Assembly: GCF_001435995.1 (NCBI RefSeq) | Contig: NZ_AYYQ01000003.1 | Location: 1 to 64,000 of the forward strand | DNA from: Apilactobacillus ozensis DSM 23829 = JCM 17196 | GTDB taxonomy: Bacteria; Bacillota; Bacilli; Lactobacillales; Lactobacillaceae | DNA length: 64,000 nt | Direction: 5' to 3' | In this document: piece after piece, positions 4,815 to 57,142 of the stretch | How positions within the stretch are numbered: position 1 is the stretch's first letter | Layout of the letters: every line of letters begins with the position of its first letter | Program-made: the position numbers and the translations under genes | The notes under the pieces: generated by a model | The model's database searches: none | Seen by the model: the letters and a program-made list of their open reading frames with translations, nothing else | What the model was told of the DNA's origin: nothing

Positions 4815-6269
4815 ATGAAACGACGTAATTTAACCATTAGTGTATTTTTAACTACCATCTGTGCACTAATGATAGCTTTAGGAGTATTTTTAGCTCCTAG
4901 CAGGGCTAACGCCGATACAAAGACTTACCAAATTGGAACAGATGTAACCTTCCCACCATTTGAATTCGCGAACAACGACAACAAATATGTAGGAATTGAC
5001 ATGGACTTGTTAAGAGCCATTGCTAAGAACCAAGACTTTAAAGTAAATATTAAACCACTTGGTTTCAATGGATCAGTTCAAGCAACTCAATCTGGACAAA
5101 TTGATGGTATGATTTCTGGAATGAACATCACACCTGAAAGAAAAGGTACTTTTGACTTTTCTAAGCCTTACTACAGCTCTGGAGTAGTCATGGCAGTTGC
5201 TCCAAATAGTAGTATTAAATCATTAAATGAACTAAAGGGTAAAACTGTAGCTGTTAAAACTGGTACCGCAGGAGCTGACTACGCTAACAGTATTCAAAAG
5301 AAATACGGTTTTAAAGTTTCTACTTTTGATGATTCAAGCAATATGTATCAGGATGTGACTACAGGTAACTCAGTAGCTTGTTTTGAAGACAATCCTGTTA
5401 TGATGTACGCAATTAAACAAGGAACAAAACTTAAAATAGTTACTAAGCCTGCCAACAACGGTTATTATGGCTTTGCTGTTAAAAAGGGACAAAACAAAGA
5501 GCTTTTACATAAGTTTAATGTTGGTCTAGACAACTTAAAGAAAAATGGTGAATACCAAAAAATAGTTGATAAGTATCTAAAAGCTAAGCCTAACGCTGGT
5601 AGTAGCTATGCAGATAATCATTCATTCATTGGTATTTTGAAGCAAAACAAATCTTTCTTATGGAATGGTTTTGTACAAACCTTATGGTTAACAATCGTTT
5701 CAATTTTCTTTGCTACAATTTTCGGTATGATATTCGGTTTAATGGGTGTGTTACCAAGTAAGTTTTTACAAGGTGTATCAACAACCGTTATTTATATTTT
5801 TAGAGGTTTGCCTTTAATGGTATTGGCATTATTTATCTATACTGGTATCCCAAGCTTAACCGGAACTAAAATACCAGCATTCGTAGCCGGTGTCGCCACG
5901 CTAATGTTCAATGAAGGTGCATACATTGCTGCCTTCGTTAAGGGAGGAATTCAATCAGTTGATAAAGGTCAAATGGAAGCTGCACGTAGTTTAGGTCTTC
6001 CATTTGGTAAATCAATGCGTAAGATTATCCTTCCACAAGGTGTTAAAATTATAATTCCTTCATTTGTTAACCAATTTATTATTACACTTAAAGATACTTC
6101 TATCCTATCAGTAATTGGTATTCTAGAACTTACACAAACTGGTAAAATCATCATTGCTAGAAACCTTGAAGGGTTTAAAGTATGGACTGCCATTGCAATT
6201 ATGTATCTTGTAATTATTACGCTATTAACTTGGCTTTCTAACTGGGGCAAAAGGAGGACTAAGATTTGA
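4815..6269 (+). CDS. Glutamine/polar amino-acid ABC transporter, binding protein-permease fusion
   Basis: One polypeptide of 484 aa captures the amino acid and forms the membrane channel, as in lactic acid bacterial GlnP. A signal segment (1-33, ending in RANA) is followed by a type-3 periplasmic-binding-protein domain (about 38-255; DVTFPPFEF and [20 protein letters not shown]). A permease domain (about 280-480) follows with the EAA loop [20 protein letters not shown] that docks the ATPase. There is a single binding domain; some homologues carry two. The stop overlaps the TTG start of the ATPase gene by four bases. Substrate is probably glutamine, glutamate or a similar polar amino acid. Confidence 0.92.
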
Positions 6270-7000
6270 GTAAAATAAAAGTTTCTAACTTATATAAACA
6301 ATACGGCGATAACCATGTTTTAAAAGGTGTCGATTTAGAAGTAAAAGATAACGAAGTAGTCGTTATTATTGGACCATCTGGTTCAGGTAAGAGTACTCTT
6401 TTAAGAACTTTGAATAAATTAGAAGAACCTACTTCTGGTTCAGTTATCGTTCACGGCGAAGACATTGCTAAAAAAGACGTTAATATTGATAAAGTAAGAG
6501 AACAAATTGGGATGGTTTTCCAACACTTCAACTTGTTCAACAACTTATCAGTATCTGATAACATCATGCTAGCCCCAATGGAATTGAAAAATGTTTCAAA
6601 GGAAGATGCTAGTAAATTAGCCAGAAAGTTACTTAAAATCGTTGGACTAGAAAATAAATTCGATGCTCCAATACAATCACTATCTGGTGGTCAAAAACAA
6701 CGTGTTGCGATTGCTAGAGCCCTGGCAATGCATCCTGACATCATGCTATTCGATGAACCAACTTCAGCTTTAGATCCTGAAATGGTTGGTGATGTGCTAT
6801 CCGTTATGAAACAACTAGCTAAAGATGGTATGACAATGGTCGTTGTTACCCATGAAATGGGCTTTGCCAAAGAAGTTGCTGACCGTGTACTATTCGTAGA
6901 TAAAGGTAAAGTCTTAGAAGAAGGTACCCCTGATGAAATCTTTAATCACCCTAAGGATTTAAGATTACAAGAATTTTTATCCAAAGTTTTAGATGCATAA
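6266..7000 (+). CDS. glnQ: Polar amino-acid ABC transporter ATP-binding protein (GlnQ-like)
   Basis: The ATPase drives the fused binding protein-permease encoded just upstream. The 244-aa protein has Walker [10 protein letters not shown] (about 36), Q-loop, signature [15 protein letters not shown] (about 136), Walker [15 protein letters not shown] and H-loop VVTHEMG. The GLNQ/PAAT family match is very strong. Translation starts at TTG, with AAAGGAGG eight bases upstream, and overlaps the upstream stop codon. A hairpin terminator follows, so the operon is two genes. Confidence 0.94.
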
Positions 7001-7004
7001 AAAT

Positions 7005-7042
7005 AAAAAGGAACATTCTAAAATAGAATGTTCCTTTTTATT
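7005..7042 (+). terminator. Intrinsic terminator after glnQ
   Basis: A perfect 16-bp stem (AAAAAGGAACATTCTA with its complement) has a three-base loop and a T-run. Confidence 0.9.
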
Positions 7043-7057
7043 TATTTGAATATTTTC

Positions 7058-7066
7058 TGTTATAAT
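7058..7066 (+). promoter_or_regulatory. Extended -10 promoter for the small gene at 7.1 kb
   Basis: TGTTATAAT (TG-n-TATAAT) lies 34 bases before the ATG, with no clear -35. Confidence 0.55.
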
Positions 7067-7100
7067 TATGAAAAGTAATCTCAAAGGAGATAGTTAAGCA

Positions 7101-7313
7101 ATGTTAAACTTTATTATCAATGTTTTACCTAAAAAATTACAAAGTAAAAACAAACAGAAAGCTCAAGATATTATAAAAGACGATAAAAAAAGAGTATTAG
7201 TGAAAAGAGTTAAACATGATCGCATGAATTTTTCAGACAAAATAGAGATAATCACAAAAGAATTAAACGTAAACAAAGGTACTGCTAAAGAACTTATAAA
7301 GCAGGCAAAATAA
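7101..7313 (+). CDS. Small basic protein of unknown function
   Basis: I do not recognise this 70-aa protein. It starts with a short hydrophobic or amphipathic stretch (LNFIINVLP), then is highly lysine/arginine-rich. Its last 28 residues (KIEIITKELNVNKGTAKELI) read like a short helix-turn-helix or helical hairpin. It has its own AAAGGAG ribosome site, an extended -10 promoter and a terminator, so it is a free-standing transcription unit and very likely expressed. It could be a small nucleic-acid-binding protein, but nothing in the sequence proves it. Confidence 0.65.
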   Translation: MLNFIINVLPKKLQSKNKQKAQDIIKDDKKRVLVKRVKHDRMNFSDKIEIITKELNVNKGTAKELIKQAK

Positions 7314-7348
7314 AAAAGATTTGGTAATGTCTACCAAATCTTTTTTAT
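7312..7348. terminator. Bidirectional terminator
   Basis: AAAAAAGATTTGGTA and its complement flank a short loop, with A- and T-runs on both sides. It serves the small plus-strand gene and the minus-strand permease gene. Confidence 0.85.
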
Positions 7349-7349
7349 T

Positions 7350-8843
7350 TTAAGCTTTTTTATTGGCTCGATTATAGAAAATCCAGGCAACAATAATGAA
7401 GAATACTGGACCGAAAACAGTCCAAAATGCTGTTTGTAAGTCATGGTCTAAAATTGGTTGTAACGATGTGAATATAATCGATAATGCCAAAGTAGCCATA
7501 GTAATCACCGTTACAAAATTAATTGTTATTCGGCGATGATAGAAAATAGCACCAACTTGATTATTAGCAAAATTTTTCTTGAAGAATGGAAAAGCAACTA
7601 CTAAGAACAAGTATGGAACTGCAGTCGTAATATTATTCATATCAGTCAAAATTGTATAGAAAGCTTGTGCAGTAGATCCACCAAATGAAACCCCTAAAAC
7701 AATCAAGCAAACTACTAGCGTTTGAATCCAAAGAGCAAAAGAAGGAATTCCATTTTGATTTAACTTAGTCATTTTCTTTGGCCAAAAGTCTTTAGGTGAA
7801 CCTTCAATAAATGATTTAATCGGTGCATAAATTAAGAATAAAAATTCACCAAAATAACTTATAAATCCGGTTAAACTCATAAATCTAGAAATCCATTGGC
7901 CTAAAACAACTGAGTTAGCTGCATTCATATGTAAAGCTTTTTCACCAAACATAGAACCTAAATTAGTTACCATGAAATAACGCACGTTCCCTAAATTAAT
8001 GTTGCTGCCGCTTAAATCTTTTAACCAGTTAGCACTAATTCCGCAGATAAAAATGCTTACCACATACGACAAAGTCATAAAAACCGTGGCAATGATAACC
8101 GCACGTGGAAAAGTCTTTTTAGCATTTTTAGTATTATCAGTAACTCCACCTAACGTTTCCATCCCAGCATAAGCAAAAATAGCATAAACTAAAAATGAAA
8201 AAATACTTACTGGAGATTGGAAAGCTGAGTTAGGAGATTGTGTAACACTGTGCATAGTAATTGGTTCGGCAAAGTGGCCACCTTGCAATACTAATAACCA
8301 AACTGATAAACCTACAAAAATAATAATATCAATCACACTAATAATTCCACTAAAGTAAGAAATTTGCGTAATTGCATTTAATCCGCGATTAGCCACCCAA
8401 GTAATTAAAATAATTGCAAAAACTGATAAAATTCCAATCGTTTCATTGGAATTAAGTCCCAATAAACTCCAAGTTTGGGTTTTATCAACGCCTGAAAAAG
8501 TAACTGATAAAGGAATCCACATATTAGTTAAAAGTGAAACTAAAGTTAAAACCCAACCGGCTAGCCAGGTAAAACTACCAATAAATGCCCATTTTTTACC
8601 AATTGATTTTTCTAACCATGAATAAATTCCACCGTGGGCATCCTTAAAAGTTGAACCGTATTCAGCAAACATTAAACTAGTTGGAATAAAAAACAATAGT
8701 GCTCCTAATATATACCAAGTTGCACTAGCGTAACCCATTTGATAAAAAGCCGTCTGAGAATTACTAATTCCAAAAATAGTTGAAAAAATAATGAGAACTA
8801 GTCCCATTGTTGTAATCTTACGATTACTTTGTACTTTATCCAT
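7350..8843 (-). CDS. APC-family amino-acid permease (YjeM/GadC-like), probably lysine-regulated
   Basis: This is a secondary amino-acid transporter of about 497 aa with 12 predicted membrane segments. The first helix carries the IFGISNSQTAFYQMG region of the glutamate:GABA-antiporter/YjeM branch, and FAYAGMETLGGV matches the middle of the family fold. The start at 8843 is chosen because AGGGAG lies eight bases upstream; a GTG ten codons earlier lacks a ribosome site. The L-box riboswitch directly upstream implies that lysine represses the gene, so lysine (or a lysine/cadaverine-type exchange) is the likely substrate. That part is inference. Confidence 0.88.
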   Translation of the reverse strand: MDKVQSNRKITTMGLVLIIFSTIFGISNSQTAFYQMGYASATWYILGALLFFIPTSLMFAEYGSTFKDAHGGIYSWLEKSIGKKWAFIGSFTWLAGWVLTLVSLLTNMWIPLSVTFSGVDKTQTWSLLGLNSNETIGILSVFAIILITWVANRGLNAITQISYFSGIISVIDIIIFVGLSVWLLVLQGGHFAEPITMHSVTQSPNSAFQSPVSIFSFLVYAIFAYAGMETLGGVTDNTKNAKKTFPRAVIIATVFMTLSYVVSIFICGISANWLKDLSGSNINLGNVRYFMVTNLGSMFGEKALHMNAANSVVLGQWISRFMSLTGFISYFGEFLFLIYAPIKSFIEGSPKDFWPKKMTKLNQNGIPSFALWIQTLVVCLIVLGVSFGGSTAQAFYTILTDMNNITTAVPYLFLVVAFPFFKKNFANNQVGAIFYHRRITINFVTVITMATLALSIIFTSLQPILDHDLQTAFWTVFGPVFFIIVAWIFYNRANKKA

Positions 8844-8914
8844 AATAAATACTCCCTTTTTTAAGGAAGACACTTCGACACAGCTAAATAACTATGTAAA
8901 GATTTTACATATAT

Positions 8915-8946
8915 AAAAAGCATCTCCTAAAATTAGAAGATGCTTT
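8915..8946 (-). terminator. L-box expression-platform terminator
   Basis: AAAGCATCTTCTAATTTTAG pairs with the following GAGATGCTTTT to form a stem ending in a U-run, between the lysine aptamer and the permease start. Confidence 0.8.
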
Positions 8947-8984
8947 AAAATAAGTACTTAACAAACTAAAAAGTTCATATATGT

Positions 8985-9165
8985 AAATACCTTAAAAGCA
9001 CCCCGTAGAAAACTACGACAGTTACCAGTCTATTAAACTGGTCCCCAATAATAAATTAAATAAGTAATTCATTACTTCGGCAAAATACCCTTTTTAACTA
9101 AATCACAGTTGCTTAATCAACTCAATAGCTATACTAATGTATTTTGCGCCTCTTCCTTAGATATA
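8985..9165 (-). promoter_or_regulatory. Lysine riboswitch (L-box)
   Basis: Read on the minus strand, the conserved lysine aptamer blocks appear in order: GGAAGAGGCGC, AAAAAGGGTATTTTGCCGAAG, TTGGGGACCAG, AACTGTCGTAG and CTACGGGGTGCTT closing the core. The five-helix layout with long P2 and P3 arms fits L-box RNAs. A terminator lies just downstream, so lysine binding should cause premature termination of the permease transcript. Confidence 0.92.
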
Positions 9166-9209
9166 TTTGATTATTTTAATAATACAATAACATTTTATAT
9201 TATGCAAAC

Positions 9210-9241
9210 TAAAAAAGATGCCTTTTAGGCATCTTTTTTAG
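9210..9241 (-). terminator. Terminator after the acetoin reductase gene
   Basis: TAAAAAAGATGCC and GGCATCTTTTTTA form a symmetric hairpin just downstream of the minus-strand stop. It lies beyond the 5' end of the L-box leader. Confidence 0.85.
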
Positions 9242-9247
9242 TATTTT

Positions 9248-10042
<795 letters not shown>

Positions 10043-10161: not shown

Positions 10162-11136
10162 TTATCTAACTACAACTGCATAACGATTATATTGGTCATA
10201 TACTTGTTGAAATCTGGATGTGCTTACCCAGAAAATTTTATTACCATCTCCAGCGTATTTATAAGGGTCAGCAACTAAAAATTGCCCATATCTATATCCA
10301 ACAATTGTTAACATATGGCCCGTGGCTTTACCACGCATATTTCTTGATCCAGCAAAGGCCACTGCATTTCCCCTTTTAACTTCCTTAATGATTTGGTCTT
10401 TGTGGTAACTAGAAATGTTAGCGGTATTGGAATTATACTGTTTGCCATATCTAGTTAAAGGAGCCGGCAATATAGTCCATGAAACGTTGGTAGCGTTATG
10501 TTTGTATGGATTACCGCGAAAACCCTTATGAATATTAGAACTTCTAGGCATTCGATCGATAAAAGTACGTGTACTCAAATTATTAGCACTACCTTTAACT
10601 GATAACGCCATTTTTAGACTAATCGCCTCACAGGCATTTGGTGCGAGGGTTGGATACAATTGACTAGAATAAGTGTATGGTAAAACATAAGTTGATATGC
10701 TCTTTAAAGCCTTAGCGTTTATCCAACCATAAACGTGTCCTTTGCGACTAATTTGGTAATATGTTTCCTTATTTGAAACGGCTTTTTGATTTAGTTGTAC
10801 GGATAATCCGTTAATTCTATTAGTGCTACCTAAGTATTTAGCTCCTGGCTTATATGGTTCTGCCCATAGATACGAAGTTCCATTAGCTATTTTCATCATA
10901 TATTTATCCCTAGCAGAAGTTACATCATACTTATATTGGTCAGCATTATTTTCGTCGCTATTATTATTTTCTCCATTATCATTGTTGTTTTCACTATTGC
11001 TATTAGTGTTATTTTGATTGTTTTCAACACTAACTCCGTTGATAGAATCAGCATAAGCTTTATTATACTTAATAGCGGATGTAAAGATGCCTAAACCCAT
11101 TAAAGATAAAGTTGCTAAATATACTGTTTTTTTCAT
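10162..11136 (-). CDS. Secreted C39-like peptidase with SH3/GW-type domain
   Basis: This extracellular protein is probably associated with the cell surface. A signal peptide (MKKTVYLATLSLMG... to AYA) leads to an Asn/Glu/Asp-rich linker, then a GW/SH3-like repeat (SYLWAEPYKPGAKYLG ... GHVYGWINAKAL). The C-terminal papain-like C39_2 domain has a probable catalytic Cys in PNACEAISLKMAL, His in GHMLTIVGY and Asp in VADPY. The ATG at 11136 is chosen because it begins a clean signal peptide, though the ribosome site (AAGAAG) is weak; ATG 11148 and TTG 11181 are alternatives. Substrate unknown; surface or peptidoglycan-peptide cleavage is plausible. Confidence 0.75.
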   Translation of the reverse strand: MKKTVYLATLSLMGLGIFTSAIKYNKAYADSINGVSVENNQNNTNSNSENNNDNGENNNSDENNADQYKYDVTSARDKYMMKIANGTSYLWAEPYKPGAKYLGSTNRINGLSVQLNQKAVSNKETYYQISRKGHVYGWINAKALKSISTYVLPYTYSSQLYPTLAPNACEAISLKMALSVKGSANNLSTRTFIDRMPRSSNIHKGFRGNPYKHNATNVSWTILPAPLTRYGKQYNSNTANISSYHKDQIIKEVKRGNAVAFAGSRNMRGKATGHMLTIVGYRYGQFLVADPYKYAGDGNKIFWVSTSRFQQVYDQYNRYAVVVR

Positions 11137-11316
11137 TTTAAAATCCATCTTCTTATTTTTATTTTGAGTAAATAATATCAACTAAATTTAACAAACGTAT
11201 AACATAAAGATTAACTTTTATGAATATAATGTTACACCTTTAGGCCAATTGTTTGAATATTAACCGTTGAAATAGTAGTTTATAGACGTAATAAATAAAA
11301 GATAAGAGGTTAAAAA

Positions 11317-56877: not shown

Positions 56878-56894
56878 TATTTTACCTCCAAAAA

Positions 56895-56926
56895 AAGCCG
56901 CTAAGTCTGAGAGACCTAGCGGCTAC
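56895..56926 (-). terminator. pyr attenuator terminator
   Basis: GCCGCTAGGTCTC pairs with GAGACTTAGCGGC-like sequence (GCCGCTA/TAGCGGC core) and is followed by six T, right before the pyrF ribosome site. Confidence 0.88.
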
Positions 56927-56995
56927 ACTTATAGTAAATAAAGTTCATTTATTTACAATTCGATATACCGACTTACTAGCCTCTCTGGACTAATT
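56895..56995 (-). promoter_or_regulatory. PyrR-binding RNA attenuator
   Basis: The minus strand carries AGTCCAGAGAGGCTAGTAAG (56971-56990), a match to the PyrR binding loop ARUCCAGAGAGGCU. An antiterminator region and the terminator follow. PyrR bound to UMP should favour termination when pyrimidines are plentiful. PyrR itself is not encoded in the window. Confidence 0.92.
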
Positions 56996-57142
56996 TAAAA
57001 TCTTTATTGTTGAATAGGTTACTCTACTTAATGGTGTTTAGTCAAGTTAAAATAAATTTGCTTTTTTGAAAAAGTTGTTTCATAATTATTTCTAATATAA
57101 AAATAAAGAATGTCTGTGAGCATTCATTTGGAGGAATTTAAT

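Follow-up and report, generated by a model that had tools for sequence, protein, structure and literature searches.

A lysine riboswitch ahead of a YjeM-family permease gene in Apilactobacillus ozensis, and a candidate lysine-carrying subset of the family

Lysine transporters under riboswitch control were surveyed in 2017; the accessible text of that survey lists COG0833 (lysP/gabP), COG1757 (lysW), COG0531 (yvsH) and COG0834 (lysX-lysY), along with a few putative transporters of unsettled class, and does not name YjeM (PMC5584792). Our literature search found no paper pairing YjeM with a lysine riboswitch. We presume that YjeM may be filed in COG0531, in which case riboswitch-YjeM cases may sit under yvsH, unnamed rather than unseen.

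YjeM proteins are common in lactic acid bacteria, yet in the literature accessible to us their cargo is either guessed (glutamate/GABA) or unsettled (threonine). The yjeM gene of L. plantarum is proposed, in the accessible part of the paper, to encode a glutamate/GABA carrier, a proposal made without functional study, and YjeM is reported there to lack the C-plug of GadC (PMC9909107). In the accessible part of a second paper, a multicopy plasmid carrying E. coli yjeM is described as helping a mutant in threonine uptake, although no uptake could be measured (PMC12003319). The NCBIfam family to which these proteins belong, NF011775, bears the label glutamate/gamma-aminobutyrate transporter.

We analysed a window of 64 kb (positions 1 to 64 000 of contig NZ_AYYQ01000003.1) from Apilactobacillus ozensis DSM 23829 = JCM 17196. 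In the bacterial family of this bee-associated host, YjeM matches at E ≤ 1e-30 occur in at least 200 of 301 genomes and at least 31 of 40 genera. The window carries a lysine riboswitch ahead of a YjeM-type permease gene, an observation first made from the sequence alone in a first-pass annotation and now confirmed. Judged from sequence, lysine control of this gene is close to certain. We consider it likely (probability about 0.75) that lysine is the cargo of the permease, and that the gene encodes a YjeM-family importer that takes up lysine, is shut off when lysine abounds, and offers a second route beside LysP. That lysine is bound and carried, and carried inward, we infer from the comparisons below.

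The permease among APC transporters

The permease gene (7350..8843, minus strand) encodes 497 aa. Its product matches the YjeM family NF011775 at 601.3 bits (cut-off 400) and PF13520 at 104.3 bits, and is ~39% identical to E. coli YjeM. In the open reading frame list the gene runs over 7350-8873, starting with GTG. We prefer the ATG at 8843: the Shine-Dalgarno-like AGGGAG precedes it at 8857-8852, and matches to orthologues begin at this codon.

Other assignments were rejected. The GadC models TIGR00910, NF053662 and TIGR03813 give 43, 80 and 79.5 bits, against cut-offs of 673.5, 640 and 650. The basic amino acid/polyamine antiporter model TIGR00905, the kind to which we take YvsH itself to belong, gives 45 bits (cut-off 409.05). 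The LysP model NF008094 is absent from the eight NCBIfam families that match the permease at E up to 1e-5; the LysP-like protein of the same genome, which has a lysine riboswitch too, scores 650 bits with it and so represents a different APC branch. Even the riboswitch-linked LysP-like proteins of Apilactobacillus as a whole, at 641-650 bits, fall below that model's cut-off of 735. The first-pass annotation had placed the permease in a GadC/YjeM branch as opposed to LysP: the separation from LysP and the YjeM assignment hold, but membership of GadC does not.

An AlphaFold2 model of the permease (pLDDT 87.5, pTM 0.86) shows a confident APC fold. GadC is the best match of this model in Foldseek and also the best sequence match among solved structures, for all its distance from the GadC family models. 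When structures are compared by Z score, AdiC comes top (36.5 over 424 residues, at 15% identity) and y+LAT1 with lysine comes next but one (35.5). The presence of antiporters among these neighbours favours a lysine exchanger, which would bring lysine in and send another cationic compound out (ornithine or cadaverine, for example) in the manner of AdiC/CadB-like antiporters. Against this, the common APC fold cannot separate antiport from symport, no decarboxylase is encoded among the genes adjoining the permease in the window, and the same genes show no trace of an antiport partner. We hold exchange to be unlikely, without dismissing it, and keep lysine import as the preferred reading.

Two neighbouring loci are described for context. 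At 4815-7000, on the strand opposite to the adjoining YjeM gene, lies an amino acid ABC transporter made of a fused binding protein/permease followed by an ATPase; it has no Rfam riboswitch match. The gene at 10162-11181 encodes a protein that looks secreted and combines a GW domain with a C39-like peptidase domain.

Aptamer, terminator and switch logic

A covariance search, which the first-pass annotation had named as a check, came out in favour of the riboswitch: cmscan matches the lysine aptamer RF00168 at 8988..9162 (minus strand) over the full model (1-182) with 107.2 bits, against a gathering threshold of 30, and an E-value of 1.3e-27. The same aptamer was recovered upstream of the permease by a search of its own genome, and it is one of three Rfam matches in the window. 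The element is predicted to bind L-lysine. The permease leader folds with z = -7.4 relative to its shuffles, none of 100 being equally stable. The window also holds a PyrR binding site, RF00515, at 56889-57005 (minus strand; 64.2 bits, cut-off 54).

Upstream of the aptamer a weak promoter-like site, TTTGCA-18-TATTAT (9179..9208, minus strand), agrees with the consensus in 9 of 12 letters; it is no evidence of function, since the region holds 8 sites of this kind and its shuffles more, 12.7 on average. Downstream, an intrinsic-terminator-like hairpin (8917..8946, minus strand) has 13 pairs, the tail TTATATATGT and a folding energy of -15.6 kcal/mol alone. Terminator-like sites number nine in 6900-9500, against a shuffle mean of 1.4. 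The tail is U-rich, but its U-run is weak, being short and interrupted by A.

The competing structure is an antiterminator (8938..9003, minus strand). It joins the P1 3′ strand, from 9003, to the terminator 5′ arm, down to 8938, and the segment has -18.2 kcal/mol. The two states are mutually exclusive, because the antiterminator consumes both the P1 3′ strand and the terminator 5′ arm. Over the whole leader (to 8908) the fold with P1 and terminator has -71.8 kcal/mol, against -69.7 when constrained to the antiterminator, a computed difference of 2.1 kcal/mol that makes the states nearly isoenergetic in silico. The antiterminator pairing of the window leader is only modestly above chance, being equalled by 13 of 200 shuffled leaders; across the 18 riboswitch-linked leaders described below, 0 to 22 of 200 shuffles do as well. 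Within Apilactobacillus, the terminator 5′ arm ranks first among the partners of the P1 3′ strand in 10 of 11 leaders and second in the other. The expression platform is thereby coupled to P1 in silico, and the arrangement of full aptamer and P1-coupled terminator/antiterminator is that of L boxes (RF00168) on transporter genes. The first-pass description of aptamer and terminator as textbook fits the aptamer and the presence of a terminator hairpin; the U-run and the antiterminator pairing of this leader are less clear-cut.

With these parts, lysine that holds P1 should favour termination, giving a predicted OFF switch. When lysine is plentiful, the bound aptamer would stabilize P1, the terminator at 8946-8917 would form and transcription would halt ahead of the permease gene. 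When lysine is scarce, the P1 3′ strand would pair with the terminator 5′ arm and the permease would be made. The product would be a second lysine-controlled uptake system beside the LysP of this genome, which is controlled by a separate lysine riboswitch.

The logic of the switch also bears on direction. APC permeases can operate in both directions, which leaves room for a permease that exports lysine. But the platform reads OFF with lysine, whereas export would be expected to come with an ON switch, and the gene shares its regulon with LysP and lysA. Export seems to us barely credible, and import remains the preferred direction.

Nearer to the gene, a small hairpin (8852..8869, minus strand; 7 pairs, loop of 4) encloses the AGGGAG, and each of the 11 Apilactobacillus leaders shows such a hairpin in the Shine-Dalgarno region when folded. 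In nine of the 11 (L061-L069) the P1 3′ strand can also pair ~46 nt before the start codon, beside this hairpin. This pairing is strong, being equalled by 0-15 of 200 shuffles, and suggests that those nine have a further control layer that acts on translation. It is absent from the window leader and from that of the nearest relative, where 155 and 68 of 200 shuffles, respectively, pair as well; a translational platform for the window leader was therefore dropped.

Riboswitch-linked genes in the host's family

The genome of the window (1.48 Mb, 36 contigs) has three lysine riboswitches, before a LysP-like permease gene, the YjeM gene and lysA. Lysine riboswitches occur in 286 of 301 genomes of the host's bacterial family. 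Our comparison set of 235 YjeM-family proteins came from genomes of the order, except for two taken from named contigs; drawn from among the matches listed, it contains 18 whose genes lie behind a lysine riboswitch (linked) and 217 whose genes do not (unlinked).

A close YjeM orthologue (65-100% identity) is present in 11 of 16 Apilactobacillus genomes, the other five having remote matches only. All 11 orthologues are preceded by a lysine riboswitch, with 138-169 nt between aptamer and start. Two further genera have linked genes. In the genus that we label g23, 26 genomes hold 47 YjeM copies; at least six of these are linked, and in each of the six cases the linked copy is that genome's copy most similar to the window permease. 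These genomes (G116, G283, G303, G304, G305 and G254) hold four or five YjeM copies each, one of them linked. In g36, represented by a single genome, one of three copies is linked. The first-pass annotation had also asked how the permease compares with other genes behind L boxes, and this comparison turned out favourably.

Scanning upstream of the 217 unlinked relatives gave no further linked case, three of them having <500 nt of upstream sequence; further linked cases beyond the at least 18 may exist. A scan of 19 unlinked YjeM loci for regulatory RNAs turned up a TPP element, a single sRNA family and tRNAs, but neither a lysine riboswitch nor a T-box.

Each of the 18 genomes that carry a linked YjeM also encodes a riboswitch-linked LysP, which places the linked YjeM gene within the lysine regulon and makes it an addition to LysP, not a substitute. 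The YjeM gene is dispensable where LysP is present, as the five of 16 Apilactobacillus genomes without it indicate. Our guess is that two lysine routes are kept for different affinity, pH range or coupling.

The first-pass annotation had taken the riboswitch to assign a probable substrate to the transporter group. That interpretation was right in direction and too wide, and is partly supported: lysine may be assigned to the riboswitch-linked subset (18 of 235), but not to YjeM as a group, since 217 of 235 proteins are unlinked and lack the residues, described next, of the linked ones.

Marker residues and origins

Two alignment columns are common to the linked lineages and absent elsewhere, and they are the only ones. 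T100 in TM3 (codon 8544..8546, minus strand) is T in 17 of 18 linked proteins and in none of the 217 unlinked, 213 of which have W; the sole exception among the linked is a g23 protein, L133, which keeps W100. N403 in TM10 (codon 7635..7637, minus strand) is N in all 18 linked proteins and in 0/217 unlinked. In these two positions, where other members of NF011775 have W and small or other residues, and in its lysine riboswitch, the window protein departs from YjeM at large. A third residue, E333 in TM8 (codon 7845..7847, minus strand), is E in 12 of the 18 (the 11 Apilactobacillus proteins and the one of g36), is missing from the six linked g23 proteins, and is likewise found in none of the 217.

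Columns 100 and 403 were picked after inspection of the alignment. Ninety-five of the 217 unlinked proteins were fetched after this choice: 93 have W100, and T100 and N403 are absent from all 95. Because none of the 95 is linked, this out-of-sample check could only have failed and contributes no further positive case. When three unlinked clades were drawn at random, such a column appeared in 0/400 draws with 0 or 2% of occurrences outside allowed and in 1/400 with 5%. For random pairs (a clade and a single row), at least one column was found in 5/600 and at least two in 3/600.

The accessible parts of two papers describe A96, C97 and N101 (TM3) and S357 (TM10) of AdiC as hydrogen-bonding the guanidinium of arginine (PMC5983779, PMC8399266). 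We obtained this contact list after the columns had been chosen. AdiC was aligned with the permease in one profile alignment and under four MAFFT settings, and every one of these five puts N403, a polar TM10 residue, opposite S357. AdiC N101 falls on T100 in two alignments (the profile alignment and one MAFFT setting) and on L101 in three, all MAFFT. The lineage-specific residues are thus on or beside guanidinium-contact positions of AdiC, the top structural match by Z score. N403 firmly, and T100 probably, can be placed by alignment where a cationic side chain would be handled; T100, N403 and, in some lineages, E333 may shape the site for that side chain.

These residues weigh on the question of whether the true cargo is something else, be it glutamate/GABA, threonine or a wide range of amino acids, while lysine only signals nitrogen or amino-acid status. 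Such a reading can draw on the NCBIfam family name, on the L. plantarum proposal and on the relief of the threonine-uptake mutant by E. coli yjeM, the one experimental clue to YjeM in the literature accessible to us, which concerns threonine and not lysine (PMC9909107, PMC12003319, both in their accessible parts). But lysine riboswitches are described, in the accessible text of the 2017 survey, on genes of lysine synthesis, lysine transport and some lysine catabolism (PMC5584792), and a mere signal needs no change in the protein, whereas the linked proteins have changes at or near the side-chain site that the 217 unlinked ones lack. A different cargo is in our judgement rather improbable, and we retain lysine. 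The subset with riboswitch and specific residues then offers a concrete candidate cargo, named residues and a negative set of 217 relatives, and calls for caution in transferring the glutamate/GABA label to linked YjeM genes.

The two of the 95 later-fetched proteins that lack W100 carry other residues: L322 (genome G002) has L100 and D403, and L339 (genome G036) has N100 and G403. Neither has a lysine riboswitch ahead of its gene, and none was seen in the whole genome of G002. These two may carry yet other cargoes.

The linked aptamers do not share one source. In a tree of 58 aptamers, those of Apilactobacillus YjeM genes cluster with the ones ahead of LysP genes in that genus (SH-aLRT 99), and those of g23 and g36 YjeM genes cluster with lysA aptamers (SH-aLRT 96). 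A single origin of the linked YjeM aptamers is rejected (p-AU 0.001; 0.007 without L133). Since the linked aptamers do not form one clade, at least two RNA recruitments are supported.

The grouping of Apilactobacillus YjeM and LysP aptamers means that a duplication did occur, and it could be argued that the riboswitch arrived by chance in this way, with no bearing on cargo. But the riboswitch has been kept in every one of the 11 orthologues, and other lineages acquired theirs from a different source; we find a chance arrival very improbable as the whole explanation and maintain that the riboswitch points to lysine as cargo.

For the proteins the picture is less sharp. The protein tree needs three changes for the linked state, and a single origin of all 18 linked proteins is rejected weakly (p-AU 0.038). 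One clade of Apilactobacillus and g23 linked proteins is compatible with the tree (p-AU 0.224), so T100 and N403 may be partly inherited, and separate origins of the protein traits are less sure than the separate RNA recruitments. Tentatively, and with slightly less than even confidence, we propose that YjeM proteins were made lysine carriers at least twice, each time under an aptamer from another source, of LysP type in Apilactobacillus and of lysA type in g23 and g36, and with the changes of W100 to T and of 403 to N, regulation and specificity having evolved together. If this is true, two residues and an aptamer could predict lysine carriers within an orphan family. At the level of the RNA, the family is a case of a regulatory element recruited separately to one kind of protein.

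One further lysine riboswitch, L350, lies at a contig end, and its aptamer clusters with those of the g23 YjeM genes; it probably belongs to a seventh linked g23 copy, cut off by the assembly.
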